64,000 bases of DNA from Dipodascopsis uninucleata var. uninucleata (taxonomy: Eukaryota; Ascomycota; Lipomycetes; Lipomycetales; Lipomycetaceae): positions 310,001-374,000 of the forward strand of contig JAJLTO010000004.1 in NCBI GenBank assembly GCA_030568195.1, read 5' to 3'. Position 1 is the first letter of the stretch. The number at the start of each line of letters is the position of its first letter. The position numbers and the translations under genes were made by a program. A model generated the notes under the pieces. The model saw nothing but the letters and a program-made list of their open reading frames with translations. It did not search any database and was not told the origin of the DNA. Positions 57,070-62,846 of this stretch are shown piece after piece.

Positions 57070-58527
57070 ATGTCATCAGCACTCGAGCCTCCTACTACGG
57101 CAAAGGTTATCCTTCATACAACTAAGGGCCCTATAGAAGTCGAACTATGGGCTAAAGAAACACCGCTGGCTTGCAGGAATTTTCTGCAGCATTGCATGGA
57201 CGGCTATTATGACAACACAATTTTCCATCGAGTAGTCCCAGATTTCTTAGTACAGGCCGGCGACCCGACTGGTACAGGACATGGAGGACAAAGTATCTAT
57301 AGCAGTGAAGGCGGGTTTCCGTCCGAATTTCATTCACGTTTACGATTTAATCGTCGCGGTCTTCTAGGCAACGCAGAGGCAGAGAGCCAAAATGACAACT
57401 CCCAGTTCTTCATAACGCTAGCAGCGACTCCGGAGCTGCAGCGAAAGCATACACTCTTTGGTCGAGTTGTTGGAGAAACAATTTACAATGTCCTCAAGAT
57501 CAGTGAGGTGGAATTAAACGAAGATGGTCGTCCGCTGTATCCTACTAAGATCAGTCATACGGAGATCTTGGTCAATTATTTCAGTGACATGAAGCCTCGA
57601 CAGCTGAAGACGTTAGACTCTAAGCAAGCAAAGTTGGCCAATTCTAGCACGAAAAAGAAGTTAAAGACACGTCCAAAGGTAAAATTGACTTATGGCGATG
57701 ACGAGGAAGAAGAGGAAGGCTTAAATCCAACAGCAAACAAGAAGTCAAAAAAGACCTTCAAAATGAGATCTGCTCACGAGATACTCAACGATTCGAGACT
57801 CGTGCAGTTCAAATTAGAGAGAACAGAAAACGATACGACAATAATCCGGACAGGCCCAACTTGCGAGGAGAATAAAACAGATAGTGGGAAGGGTGTAGCA
57901 ATGGAAGAGAAAACAGAACAGAAAACTACCAGGAAGCATAAATCAGATTCTGAGGTTAGCAGTTCGAATTACGAAAAGGGAACGCCGCTGCAAGATTCAC
58001 AGCCAGAGATAAAAGCAAAGAAAGAGAGTATTAAGTCCTCTTATGAGGAGGATGGCGTAGCAAATGAATCGTTTGATGTCGTTGGTAGCCAGGCGTCAGA
58101 ATTTGATAAAATCAATGCAGAGATAGCTGCGCTTAAGGCATCGATGAAACGTAAACGGGAAGGGAGCACGAGTGAGAAGAGTCAAAGCAAAAAGAAGATT
58201 TCCGCACTAGAGGAGCAGCGTTTGAAGTATCTGCAGCCCAAACAGTCGGGTATATCAGCTAAGAAGAGGAAGGAGCAACGCGAAGCTGCAACTCTGTCGA
58301 TGCTGTCTAAGTTCACTTCGAAGTTACACGACTACACCAAAGCCAGGCCACCTCCACTTCCTAAGCGGAAGAAAGCATCCGACGGAGACGAGGAAGAACT
58401 CTGTGAGCTTCACAACCTTCCTCGCTGTCAATCATGCATGTATTACGACCAACTGAGCGATGGAGAGGAAGGGGGCTCTACCTATCTCTTTCACACGTTC
58501 GGCGTCGAAGAAAATAAGAAATCATAG
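57070..58527 (+). CDS. CWC27: Spliceosome-associated cyclophilin CWC27
   Basis: A single exon of 485 residues. The cyclophilin domain occupies about residues 10-180 (GPIEVELWAKETPLACRNFL, YDNTIFHRVVPDFLVQAGDP, NDNSQFFITLAATPELQRKH). Charged, Lys/Glu-rich sequence with coiled coils follows, ending with a short conserved C-terminal part (LYDY-like LHDYTKARP...CELHNLPRCQSC). CWC27 binds CWC22 in the activated spliceosome. It is known as a catalytically weak or inactive isomerase, and the present domain carries Glu where the active tryptophan region of canonical cyclophilins lies (AEAESQNDNS segment). That last point is inference. Start is the first ATG, 7 bases after an in-frame stop-rich leader. 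Confidence 0.92.
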   Translation: MSSALEPPTTAKVILHTTKGPIEVELWAKETPLACRNFLQHCMDGYYDNTIFHRVVPDFLVQAGDPTGTGHGGQSIYSSEGGFPSEFHSRLRFNRRGLLGNAEAESQNDNSQFFITLAATPELQRKHTLFGRVVGETIYNVLKISEVELNEDGRPLYPTKISHTEILVNYFSDMKPRQLKTLDSKQAKLANSSTKKKLKTRPKVKLTYGDDEEEEEGLNPTANKKSKKTFKMRSAHEILNDSRLVQFKLERTENDTTIIRTGPTCEENKTDSGKGVAMEEKTEQKTTRKHKSDSEVSSSNYEKGTPLQDSQPEIKAKKESIKSSYEEDGVANESFDVVGSQASEFDKINAEIAALKASMKRKREGSTSEKSQSKKKISALEEQRLKYLQPKQSGISAKKRKEQREAATLSMLSKFTSKLHDYTKARPPPLPKRKKASDGDEEELCELHNLPRCQSCMYYDQLSDGEEGGSTYLFHTFGVEENKKS

Positions 58528-59576
58528 GATACTTAAGCTGCAGGCATCTTCTATTGGTATTACACATGCTGATAACCATGGGAAGCAAGGTCTGCACACA
58601 TAATTGCTCGTTTTGTAGCTAGCAATGTGCGCACATGCTTACGTACTCCATCAAGCATTATTCATGAAACGCGTTTGTACTATAGGACAGAGAATAAAAA
58701 TTTTAAGTCTAATAACGTGGTAGTTTATAGATAGATATATTTGCAAATGAATGCTTACTGGTGCAGCGAGCCTCGTCGAATCGTTTCTTGTCGTGTATAG
58801 ACCATTTATGCTTGTAGTGAAGTGTCTGGACCCTTTCAGATATTAAGTCTAGGCCTAAAATCAATGCACGTGCAGCCTTGCTTATGTCGACAGCCAGCGT
58901 ACGACTTTGGCAGCCCACAGAACCTTCTAAAATCGCGAAACTTTTTGAGCACTGACGCTCTATGGCACAATATTAGTGCCCAATTGGAGCTTCAGACTGC
59001 GATATCTTGTAGTCAAGATTGTTGCTATTAGTAGCTGTTGCCAGTGGTGTTCAGGTCCGTCTTCACTACACAAGTGCTTGTAAAATCGACTTGGACTGAA
59101 ATAGAAATTATAGTAGAAAGTTCCATCCATATTTAAAAAGTTTGTTTCAAAACTAGCAAACACAATCCATATACCTTATTTTACTATGCAATATTGGCGT
59201 ATCATCATTGCTTTTGGTATTTTTCCTTGCAAATTTGATATTTTTGTCTAATTTTAGAGAGGTCTCGCACATGGCTATAAAAGGCCACGCTGTCCGCTAC
59301 GTGTACTTTCCAACCTTTGCTTAGTGCTCAACGGGCTCAGGGCAAACTTGTTTGCTTGCCACTTCAACGTGGATAAGGCTGTGCATCTTTCCTACTATTT
59401 GATTATCAAATTCAACAAGATAATTCATTTTCTTTTTATTTTTCGCAGTTCGCACCGCAGATTAGGAGAGTTAAGCAAGCCATAGATAGATACGGCTGCT
59501 TTCGAGGTGTTGAAAATCAATATTTAAAAGGCTTCGTTGCCATCAGTTGATTTGGGATTCTTCAATAACATTGATA
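58528..59576. other. Intergenic with HAC1 promoter and leader
   Basis: 1.05 kb between the CWC27 stop codon and the HAC1 start codon. A TATA box and a likely long 5' leader lie in the right half. On the minus strand, 58709-58990 stays open for about 97 codons in one frame, with protein-like sequence such as LAVDISKAARALILGLDLIS. It lacks an ATG start at the upstream end or a splice partner that I could confirm. It may be a relic or an unrecognised exon. Confidence 0.45.
59276..59283 (+). promoter_or_regulatory. TATA box of HAC1
   Basis: TATAAAAG in the context GGCTATAAAAGGCC, about 300 bases before the HAC1 start codon. A TACGTG word at 59298-59303 matches the core recognised by Hac1 in the yeast UPRE-2 and might allow self-regulation, but a six-base match alone is weak. 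Confidence 0.5.
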
Positions 59577-60889
59577 ATGATCAATATGGTTAGATCTCCA
59601 AATGAATCAGACTCTGAAATATCTGGTGACCGTGAACGGTCGTCGTCAGTCGATTCTGTTTGTGATGACCCTAATGACGAGGGCTACTCGCGAAAAAGAA
59701 GAGATTCATTGATTTTGCCTTTACCACCGGGGGCACTCCCTCCTCGAAAGCGAGCAAAGACTGCAATCGAGAAGGAGCAAAGACGTGTCGAGCGAATACT
59801 TCGAAATCGCCAGGCCGCTCAGTCATCCAGAGAAAAGAAGCGGAAACAATTGGAAGAACTGGAGAGCGTAAACATGCACCTCCAGAACGAAAACAAACTT
59901 ATGGCTGAACAGCTTGGCCGAGCTGAGAGCGAAAATGAATCACTTAAAAAGAAGTTAAATGACGTCGCTGCTGAACTGGCGAAAGTAAAGACATTCATGG
60001 AAGGCTTCAAATTTAACTGTGATCAGTATCTACATGAGGATACCGGAAGTGGCAAAGGCATTAAAAATGAGCCTGAAATAAGTAATACATCAGTTGCTAT
60101 TACAGGCAGTAATATTCTGGGGTCGGTTAGTCCTCTACAACTTGCTACCAACTCACCAAAAAGTCAAGATTTTGTATGTGATGATACCATGCAATCTAGT
60201 CCTATATCACAAGTTCTCAGAGATAGTGAAACCATGCCTGCATATTCAGTTCCGGACGCTGGAAATATTGTGGCCCTCAAATCGATGCATCATCCCGCAG
60301 CGATGATGTCTTTAGACCTGCAGCGTCTTTTGAGGAACCCACTCTGTTTCGGCCCCTGGATAATGAGGCTAGCATGGACACTGTTGATAACGGCAGCTAT
60401 TTCGGGGAAGATGATCTCGACAGTTTACTTGTCGAGGTTGCCAACTCGGCTACACTCCTCATTGGATCTGAGTCGATCGCCAGTGATAGCCCAAGTTCGA
60501 TCACAGAAGATGATACTTTCTCCATCTTCGAAGAGGTCCAGTCTAATTCGAAAATTGAAACATTTGATTGGGACACAGTTGTCGACGCCAGTGTTATCTC
60601 AACAGATCACATCAAAAGTGACGAAGAAAAGACGCTCACTGCTGAAGAAAATCCGGAAAACCAGTCTGCTCTTGCTACAGACCTCACAGCATATGACTCC
60701 TCAGATGCATCCTCGATCTTCGCACCAGTCAAGTCAGAATTTCCAGATTCACAAGCAGCTCCAATCGATATTCCAGCTCTCCTCTCAGAGAAGCAGCCAA
60801 GTCAGACATTTGGCGCTCGCGGGCCGATCTCCGTGCCCAGCTGTAGCGACTGGTCTGGACGAGCAATGGAAGTCGGGTTGTTCGAATAG
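59577..60889 (+). CDS. HAC1: Hac1/HacA bZIP transcription factor of the unfolded protein response
   Basis: The spliced form joins 59577-60297 to 60321-60889 for 429 residues. The bZIP begins near residue 66, with basic region N77-x7-R85 (NRQAAQSSREKKR) and leucines in heptads to about residue 130; the PPRKRAK lead-in is typical of HacA. The frame change at the 23-nt Ire1 intron occurs at about residue 241. The new frame encodes an acidic, Ser-rich activation tail (LDNEASMDTVDNGSYFGEDD, LDSLLVEVANSATLL, SPSSITEDDTFSIFEEVQ) ending at 60889. Without splicing the bZIP frame stays open to 61136 (519 residues). The first in-frame ATG is at 59577; a second at 59586 is possible. Neighbours are CWC27 upstream and RRP8 downstream. 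Confidence 0.93.
60298..60320 (+). promoter_or_regulatory. Unconventional 23-nt Ire1-type intron in HAC1 mRNA
   Basis: The 5' site is CCG|CAGC and the 3' site is CTG|CAGC, both matching the CNG|CAGC consensus of XBP1/hac1 sites. Each heptamer is the 7-base loop of a hairpin: CATCATC/GATGATG flanks the first (7 bp) and AGAC/GTCT the second (4 bp). Removing 23 bases shifts the frame and opens the 60321-60889 activation frame. Lengths reported for other species range from 19-29 nt in several fungi and about 23-26 nt in animals to 252 nt in baker's yeast. Confidence 0.92.
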
Positions 60890-61451
60890 TTTGTCTTCTG
60901 AATTCATGTCTTACATGTCGAGATTAGATACGAAGCTTGATGAGTTTATTGGTGCGGGTGAAGATTCTAGCGAGATTAATTTGGATTCGCGGGATAGGGA
61001 CAACAGTGGCAATCATTTTGATAATAATGGAGAAAATGGATTGAATATGAATAAAAATGATTTAAATCGTCTTTTGGGTTTAGTTGAAACGGTAAATAGG
61101 ACTTTGGCTAAGAGTAGATCTCATCTACAGGATTGAAATGGTGTTTAATCTAGTATTTTTATGTATATTTATTTAGAAATATAATTGAAGTAAATTTCTA
61201 ATCGTTAATAGTCCACTTTATTAGTACATATGCAAAAGTGATGGATATTTTATTTATTGGTTTTGTTTAAATACTATGTAGATTGTCATTTGCTAGGTAA
61301 TAGTAAATATGCATTAACAAATACATCATAGGGTTTGGTGTAAAAAAATTCTCGACAACATTTTATCTTGCTTTGTTCATTAGTCCATTTCCTTTAAACA
61401 AATCAGGCCGTATTTTGTCATAATCTTAGAGCTCATTAGAAGTCTCTTAAA
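60890..61451. other. HAC1 unspliced-frame tail and intergenic DNA
   Basis: The bZIP reading frame of the unspliced HAC1 message continues through 61136 with coding-like sequence (FMSYMSRLDTKLDEFIGAGE, LNRLLGLVETVNRTLAKSRS). In the spliced form this is 3' UTR. From 61137 to the RRP8 start the DNA is AT-rich, with no other feature seen. Confidence 0.5.
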
Positions 61452-62846
61452 ATGAACTTGTTTGAAGTTGAAGGGTGGTCGATCCCTTCAAAAGTCACTG
61501 TACCAAATGGTGGTTTTATATCGCAAGATTCCGCAACAACAGTGGTAGAAGATTTATCAAAGAATAGTGTTAAGAACAGACAATCAAGCAAAGATAAAAA
61601 AAAGAAAAGAAGGAAGCTCTCCATAAACAAAAGTGCTAATATCATTGCTGCCGAGCAATTGTTAAATAAGAACGAAGAAGTGAAGAGTGATGATTTACAG
61701 AAATTGTTTAATATGCAATTTCAGAAGAAATCTGAATCAAGCAATCAAAAGCAGTCAGAGTCGAAGTTTAAGGAATCTACAATTCTCGAAGTAGCGTCAA
61801 AGAAGCACGAGTCACCTAAAGACTTGAAATCTACGATAGCCAGGGCAGATTTGAATAAGACAAGTCAGTCAAAAAAGCAGAAATCTGAGCGCAGCATTAA
61901 AGAAAAGAAAACAGCGTTAGAAATAGACTCTATTACAAATATTCCATCTTTAGCGCCTAAGGGCTCAGAAATGAAGCTGACACCGCTTCAGAGAAAAATG
62001 AAGGAAAAACTCACCGGCTCTCGATTTAGATGGATTAACGAAAAGCTATATACTATATCGTCGGAAGAGGCAGAGAAGCTGATCAAAGAGCATCCTGACC
62101 TCTTTAATGAGTATCATGAAGGTTTTCGTAACCAGGTTCAATCATGGCCCGAGAATCCTGTGAAGTTCTACATTGAAAAAATCCAAGAACTTTCAAAGAA
62201 AAGAGGGCCGATCAGTGTTGGACTCCCAAGAGACAATAAAGGTACAACCATTATCGCAGATATGGGATGTGGTGATGCTGAACTTGCATTGAATGTGGCG
62301 ACTGCGTTTACTAAGCTAAACAGCAAAAAGGATAGAAAGCCAAGCAAAATGCACAACAATATTGTTGTGCATAGCTTTGACCTCTCAAAAACTAATGAGA
62401 GAGTAACAGTGGCAGATATCAAGCATGTACCATTGGCAGATGAAAGCACTCATATTGTTATTTTTTGCCTATCACTGATGGGAACAAATTTCTTAGACTT
62501 CATAAAGGAAGCACATAGAATTCTTCGAGCTCGAGGATTGTTATGGATCTCAGAGATAAAATCAAGGTTCTCGGATAGAGATGGTGCGGATTTTGTTCAG
62601 GCCATTAGAAAACTTGGATTTCTACATACTGAAACCGATGCGTCAAATCTCATGTTTATCAGATTTAGTTTCTTCAAACCCGTTTCAGAAAGAAAACTTA
62701 AGAATGAAATTGCTGAGACAGAGAAGTTAAATGAGAAAAAGAGAAAGATGAAGTTCATAGAAGAAGATGAACCATATAGTAGTGACGCAGACGAGAGTAA
62801 GCACACTTTACCTCTGCTGAAGCCGTGTATATATAAGAAAAGATAA
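61452..62846 (+). CDS. RRP8: 25S rRNA adenine-N1 methyltransferase RRP8
   Basis: A single exon of 464 residues from the ATG at 61452. The first 180 residues are Lys/Ser-rich and disordered, as is usual for the nucleolar RRP8 tail. The conserved part begins FRWINEKLYTISSEEAEKL, then FNEYHEGFRNQVQSWPENPV. The SAM-binding Rossmann motif ADMGCGDAELA is at about residue 273, followed by SFDLSKTNERVTVADIKHVP, CLSLMGTNFLDFIKEAHRIL and LLWISEIKSRF. RRP8 methylates N1 of one adenine in helix 25.1 of 25S rRNA (A645 in yeast) during 60S assembly in the nucleolus. A basic C-terminal tail ends the protein. Confidence 0.95.
   Translation: MNLFEVEGWSIPSKVTVPNGGFISQDSATTVVEDLSKNSVKNRQSSKDKKKKRRKLSINKSANIIAAEQLLNKNEEVKSDDLQKLFNMQFQKKSESSNQKQSESKFKESTILEVASKKHESPKDLKSTIARADLNKTSQSKKQKSERSIKEKKTALEIDSITNIPSLAPKGSEMKLTPLQRKMKEKLTGSRFRWINEKLYTISSEEAEKLIKEHPDLFNEYHEGFRNQVQSWPENPVKFYIEKIQELSKKRGPISVGLPRDNKGTTIIADMGCGDAELALNVATAFTKLNSKKDRKPSKMHNNIVVHSFDLSKTNERVTVADIKHVPLADESTHIVIFCLSLMGTNFLDFIKEAHRILRARGLLWISEIKSRFSDRDGADFVQAIRKLGFLHTETDASNLMFIRFSFFKPVSERKLKNEIAETEKLNEKKRKMKFIEEDEPYSSDADESKHTLPLLKPCIYKKR
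62349..62372. repeat. Perfect 24-bp palindrome inside RRP8
   Basis: ATGCACAACAAT is directly followed by its exact reverse complement, with no spacer, within the coding sequence (Met-His-Asn-Asn-Ile-Val-Val-His). It has no known role. Confidence 0.85.

Follow-up and report, generated by a model that had tools for sequence, protein, structure and literature searches.

The gene that begins at position 59577 of the window (the whole 64-kb stretch of DNA analysed here) is almost certainly an ordinary HAC1 gene of the Lipomycetaceae type, from whose mRNA Ire1 would splice 23 nt under ER stress, with a switch of reading frame, and whose unspliced form is probably translated as well. Under stress, Ire1 would cleave the HAC1 mRNA after 60297 and after 60320, each cut falling in a 7-nt loop. 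The exons would then be joined by a Trl1-type ligase, and the loss of 23 nt would shift translation from the bZIP frame into an acidic frame of 189 aa with a putative activation role. Without stress, the mRNA would stay unspliced and its own frame of 519 aa would probably be read. A preliminary description of the same DNA had already read 60298-60320 as an Ire1 intron, and this reading is supported by the splice sites, a match to an Rfam family, the switch of frame and the presence of an IRE1 gene. In this way, a well-known mechanism is extended to the Lipomycetaceae, the group of earliest-branching budding yeasts, in which industrial oil producers are included. The significance of the intron is lower than was estimated at first. 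The preliminary description overlooked that the unspliced frame exceeds the spliced one in length and is conserved among relatives; this frame matters more than the splice itself and is the lead to be kept.

Splice sites and hairpins of the predicted intron

The 5' site CCGCAGC (60295-60301) and the 3' site CTGCAGC (60318-60324) have cut points 23 nt apart. If Ire1 cuts after the third base of each loop, CCG|CAGC and CTG|CAGC, the established position within a 7-nt loop, the predicted intron is 60298..60320 on the forward strand. Both loops are closed directly by stems. The 5' hairpin (60287..60309, forward strand) has a stem of 8 bp, the outermost pair being G-U, and was recovered by the stem scan and the folds; the 3' hairpin (60314..60328, forward strand) has a stem of 4 bp and was recovered by the stem scan and the 49-nt fold. 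The two loops at a distance of 23 nt, each within a hairpin, were described previously, and the sites, coordinates, spacing and stems were all verified. Moreover, the region 60267..60345 of the forward strand matches Rfam RF04247 ('bZIP non canonical Hac1/Xbp1 intron'), an RNA element of twin hairpins with an outer stem, at 42.6 bits compared to a gathering cut-off of 41 (E 1.9e-6).

Both strands of the 64-kb window were scanned for paired hairpins 15-60 nt apart, each with CNGCNGN in a 7-nt loop and a stem of at least 4 bp, and the HAC1 pair was the sole one. In the genome as scanned (16.2 Mb in 25 contigs), 21 pairs of CYGCAGC sites lie 19-33 nt apart when both strands are counted, representing 19 loci, and only the HAC1 pair has both stems of at least 4 bp.

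The local fold of 49 nt contains both hairpins, and its stability is unremarkable (z -0.71). In the 101-nt fold (z -1.78), the 5' hairpin is retained, with pair probabilities of 0.84-0.96 for the inner six pairs; the 3' stem is a minority structure with pair probabilities of 0.07-0.09, other pairing of the 3' side is preferred, and the fold that keeps both hairpins together with the outer stem is 2.3 kcal/mol less stable than the optimum. The expectation of the preliminary description that both stem-loops would appear on folding was borne out at 49 nt, and at 101 nt mainly for the 5' stem. The 101-nt fold tells slightly against an Ire1 intron.

It could be supposed that the hairpins arose by coincidence and that the acidic open reading frame is spurious. 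The modest z-scores of both folds are in keeping with this, as is the acidic tail, which is without a database relative in a region search of 636 candidates. On the other side stand the Rfam match, the genome-wide uniqueness of the pair, the switch of codon-usage frame at the intron and the spliced annotation of a Myxozyma homologue, which together leave such a coincidence scarcely credible. Chance hairpins as such were ruled out by the RF04247 match, the window scan and the uniqueness among the site pairs of the genome.

Two reading frames of HAC1

The unspliced (u) frame occupies 59577..61136 of the forward strand and crosses the intron without a stop codon. According to the open reading frame, its translation and Pfam, it encodes 519 aa with a bZIP at residues 65-127, upstream of the intron; the matches to bZIP_1 (29.2 bits) and bZIP_2 (27.6 bits) are both above cut-off. 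Exon 1 (59577..60297, forward strand), comprising the N-terminus, the bZIP and a linker, is common to the spliced and unspliced forms. Exon 2 (60321..60889, forward strand) encodes an acidic C-terminus in the spliced (S) frame, which ends at the stop TAG 60887-60889. Since this stretch is open in the u frame too, it is dual coding. The spliced product has 429 aa, of which the C-terminal 189 include 39 D/E and 8 K/R, and is shorter than the u product. Beyond the S stop, a u-only tail of approximately 81 codons (60890..61136, forward strand, with the stop at 61134-61136) can be encoded only by the unspliced mRNA or through a frameshift.

In the u frame, the C-terminus is basic: of the 279 residues that follow the junction, 38 are K/R and 19 are D/E (tallied over 281 letters, including the stop and one codon beyond). 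A protein with an entire bZIP and such a basic tail could serve as a bZIP factor that lacks an activation domain and holds spliced Hac1 in check. This would be analogous to XBP1u in animals, where pXBP1(U) directs pXBP1(S) to degradation (PMC5636610); by this analogy a restraining role is conceivable, and we hold it to be unlikely.

Codon usage was scored in bits per codon. The reference was a set of 11 further long frames in the window, all open over at least 300 codons and chosen mechanically. In exon 1 it backs the u frame (0.196 compared to -0.097 and -0.068), and from the intron to the S stop the S frame scores 0.195 and the u frame -0.043. The earlier claim that excision moves the bZIP frame into an acidic frame of 190 codons is therefore well founded, since an acidic end of 189 aa was obtained and codon usage switches at the same place. 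In the u-only tail (60892-61136), the u frame scores 0.136 compared to -0.237 and 0.033 and is coding-like; at 61140-61430 all three frames score negative. The tail is mid-range among true-frame windows (46.5% of 243 lower, these windows coming from the training frames themselves), and its score is reached by 1/32 open wrong-frame windows and by 131/4757 of all wrong-frame windows.

When the S protein was kept fixed and codons were drawn by local usage, a mean of 7.5 stops arose in 187 codons of the u frame, and only 2 of 20,000 draws were open. When only the synonymous codons of the S frame itself were reshuffled, the u frame was open in 11.6% of draws, which indicates that the signal lies in the choice of codons and not in their order. 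In the converse null, with the u protein fixed, the mean was 9.1 S-frame stops and no draw out of 20,000 was open. In the 11 other long frames, every window of 187 codons contains a stop at this offset (0 of 3577 open), and no open stretch exceeds 106 codons. Judging from the sequence, it is likely that the unspliced form of HAC1 is translated.

The open u frame may do no more than shield the unspliced mRNA, for example from nonsense-mediated decay, which a premature stop at a great distance from the poly(A) tail would set off; the protein itself would then have no role. The openness is improbable by chance under local codon usage, and within the dual region the u frame has poor codon usage and a hydrophobicity at the level of the null, all of which would be expected of such protection. 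A coding-like u-only tail, conserved in amino acids among close Lipomyces, would not, and we regard protection alone as possible, though somewhat improbable.

HAC1 in other Lipomycetaceae

The best database relatives of the window protein are Lipomyces, Myxozyma and Dipodascopsis proteins with 41-47% identity over 48-69% of the query; two proteins of L. kononenkoae have 63 and 68% identity over 30 and 26% of it. By this single gene, the source of the window is a yeast of the Lipomycetaceae kind and differs from every species in that list. Among 14 aligned Lipomycetaceae homologues, the annotated model of 13 (414-527 aa, two proteins each from L. starkeyi and L. kononenkoae among them) follows the unspliced frame. 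The sole homologue annotated as spliced is Myxozyma P0011 (364 aa), whose junction HHPAA|SFE is the same as that of the window gene. Exon 1 is 62-71% identical to 13 relatives over residues 38-143. The intron motif HHP[AE]A...[LP]Q[RC] is present in 13 of the 14, together with the same bZIP and a long u frame. From the phase of the proteins, an intron of 23 nt can be derived for P0002, P0003, P0007 and P0015 and one of 26 nt for the other nine, given that the form 3n-1 is imposed by the method, that 3 nt more are possible in rows with QQR and that a few rows of loose pattern are doubtful. The Lipomyces-like P0009 (261 aa, u-type), which was omitted from the alignment, differs from the 13 others in that its u frame ends approximately 60 residues past the site; it is either a counterexample to the long u frame or a broken gene model.

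All 13 u-type relatives have 60-86 aa in the position that corresponds to the u-only tail, and among nine close Lipomyces proteins the mean identity of this part is 76%. A profile of the Lipomyces tails matches the tail of L. arxii at 55 bits (0/2000 shuffles as good). For the window species the same profile gives 4.7 bits (79/2000 shuffles as good), and for P0015, P0007 and P0014 there were 326, 1130 and 131 of 2000 shuffles as good; these matches are not convincing. Homology of the u-only tail between the window species and Lipomyces is not supported by this comparison. A search with the u region of L. orientalis P0002 returned 10 proteins including the query, all of them from Lipomyces, with the window protein absent.

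Possible S frames of the relatives, as far as they can be judged from the u proteins, need not contain a stop in any of the 14, a protein-level result that proves little. For the acidic tail, the region search of 636 candidates gave nothing at E<=10. Compared to a profile of Pezizomycotina tails it scored 1.9 bits (232/2000 shuffles as good), and compared to the Myxozyma tail it gave a weak match of 4.5 bits (34/2000 shuffles as good); the Myxozyma tail had no match to the Pezizomycotina profile. A stretch FDWDxVxD, recognised by eye, is common to the acidic tail and the Myxozyma tail and is all that points to acidic-tail homology beyond the window species, which the search does not support. 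Among the proteins compared by profiles and region search, no convincing sequence match of the Pezizomycotina tails to the tails of the window gene was found.

Hydrophobic stretch after the intron

In the u frame, the 19 residues CFGPWIMRLAWTLLITAAI (60345..60401, forward strand) form a hydrophobic stretch with a maximum Kyte-Doolittle mean of 1.46. The most hydrophobic 19-mer was likewise sought in the first 80 residues past the 3' site of 14 Lipomycetaceae and 16 Pezizomycotina-type proteins and compared with shuffles of the same tail. P0009 was left out of the Lipomycetaceae set. The 16 are unspliced-type proteins chosen by eye from the homologue list; one of them, P0101, is a mixed model that ends in a motif of the spliced frame. 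The mean of the 19-mer is 1.25-2.23 in 14/14 and 16/16 proteins, and its start lies 2-40 residues past the 3' site in all 30. It exceeds 95% of the shuffles in 12 of the 14 and 9 of the 16 (21/30). The stretch of the window gene fails this mark, as 56 of 1000 shuffles of its own tail are as good, and it is not above the null given the S protein (P 0.49 with local usage, 0.16 with its own codons). It may be a by-product of the S frame. The hydrophobic patch was rejected as proof of ER targeting, because the acidic frame by itself yields such hydrophobicity in the window gene.

The Pezizomycotina-type HacA proteins (P0048, P0069, P0098 and others, lichen and earth-tongue fungi included) extend 137-264 residues past the 3' site; P0048, P0069, P0098 and similar proteins are of the unspliced type, with the hydrophobic stretch near the start of the region after the site.

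Targeting of unspliced HAC1 to the ER in the manner of XBP1u would add to the Ire1/HAC1 explanation and not replace it. The hydrophobic 19-mer near the 3' site throughout both sets, its rank above the shuffles in most Lipomycetaceae, and the coding-like u-only tail, conserved in nine Lipomyces proteins and L. arxii, are consistent with this. So are published observations: hacAu of A. fumigatus is found on polysomes and the predicted HacAu is said to be conserved, data not shown (PMC3197630), and roles of the unspliced form and ER targeting are discussed alongside animal overlap work (PMC7580959). Against it, the hydrophobicity of the window gene is that expected from its S protein, its stretch falls short of the 95% mark, its tail scores poorly on the Lipomyces profile, the search with P0002 returned only Lipomyces proteins, and P0009 ends soon after the site. 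Such targeting is, in our judgement, unlikely. In S. cerevisiae, targeting of HAC1 to Ire1 depends on an element in the 3' UTR. Unlike this, and as with animal XBP1u, the unspliced HAC1 of Lipomycetaceae might be a second selected product, whose hydrophobic segment would take the mRNA to the ER and Ire1 and whose u-only tail would add a function; such a product might even date back to the common ancestor with the filamentous Ascomycota. This wider proposal is speculative and appears rather unlikely. Almost certain, as stated at the outset, is the ordinary HAC1 with its Ire1 intron.

Comparison with known systems

The loops of human XBP1 are CCG|CAGC and CTG|CAGC, the same as those found here. 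Two overlapping frames are a further point in common with animal XBP1/xbp-1, and the intron of Drosophila Xbp1 is given as 23 nt (PMC4528330). The likeness to animal sites, and to the fly in length, noted in the preliminary description holds; its implication that they are odd in a fungus does not. CNG|CAGC is the joint Hac1/Xbp1 consensus in RF04247, so that animal-specific sites were rejected, and a proven Ire1-type intron of 23 nt is also reported for hac-1 of Neurospora crassa (PMC4488935).

Neurospora hac-1 is similar in being a bZIP gene with an Ire1-type intron and a change of frame, and short introns of the hac-1 type are typical of filamentous fungi (PMC4488935). It differs in its 5' site, CTGCTG compared to CCGCAG, and belongs to a different lineage. 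In fungi, the HAC1 intron can be as short as 19 nt (C. albicans) or as long as nearly 850 nt (L. elongisporus; PMC6222058), and plant bZIP60 has 23 nt (PMC4891664). Aspergillus hacA resembles the window gene in an unspliced frame longer than the spliced one: in A. fumigatus, a 433-aa HacAu is described, the 220-aa C-terminus of which is replaced by 129 aa on splicing (PMC10781871). Its intron has 20 nt instead of 23. The closest resemblance is to HAC1 of Lipomyces, Dipodascopsis and Myxozyma, which have the intron motif, the long u frame and the bZIP in common with the window gene; they differ in the 26 nt derived for nine of 13 u-type proteins and in the spliced annotation of the Myxozyma protein.

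Given the precedents in Neurospora, Drosophila and plants and the u frame of A. fumigatus, the splice is known in kind, and the overlap represents a family-level extension of a published idea. Among the literature matches listed, with most subscription journals outside the search, no study of Lipomyces HAC1 was apparent, and none on a hydrophobic targeting segment in fungal HAC1. The long u frame bears on how fungi with short introns bring HAC1 mRNA to Ire1 and restrain the unspliced form, subjects touched on in PMC4488935 and PMC7580959. Lipomycetaceae HAC1 is a clean test case for this, because mutations can be placed in the dual-coded part or in the unspliced-only part independently of each other.

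Pathway machinery in the genome

The preliminary reading depended on an IRE1 gene, and one is present in the genome as a single open frame of 1090 aa with a full-length match to the RNase domain (170 bits); an N-terminal hydrophobic start and the kinase were recognised by eye. A tRNA ligase of the Trl1 type (PF09511) was found at 248 bits. By the profile match its gene lies in two open pieces at L031:431-3319, which are probably two exons. A short spliceosomal intron probably splits the gene and likely accounts for the TAG between the pieces.

RtcB is the ligase of the animal pathway, and in this respect the window species appears to differ from animals. RtcB was not found in the genome at the sensitivity of the search, which did detect it in nine of the 14 control genomes, each of the nine a prokaryote. 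With a Trl1-type ligase present and RtcB not found, ligation of the HAC1 exons by Trl1 is the natural inference.

Upstream motif and neighbouring genes

A UPRE-like motif, GGACAGCGTG, was found upstream of HAC1 by motif scan (59286..59295, reverse strand), with CAGCGTG at -291. Autoregulation of HAC1 through it is possible, and the evidence is weak because control genes also carry CAGCGTG: within 1 kb upstream, this is the case for 2 of the 11 other long frames of the window and for 0 of 5 other HSP70 frames. No UPRE-type motif occurs within 1 kb upstream of the open frames of BiP, LHS1-like or IRE1; a 5' intron is apparent in the BiP gene, whose real promoter could therefore be more distant. 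The 10-mer GGACAGCGTG has 10 occurrences in the genome compared to 16 for its reversed control and is not enriched. The motif was accordingly set aside as support, given the control frames, its absence at BiP, LHS1-like and IRE1, and the lack of enrichment. The neighbouring genes of HAC1 encode a cyclophilin-type peptidyl-prolyl isomerase (57070-58527) and a Methyltransf_8 protein (61452-62846), the latter presumably Rrp8-like.
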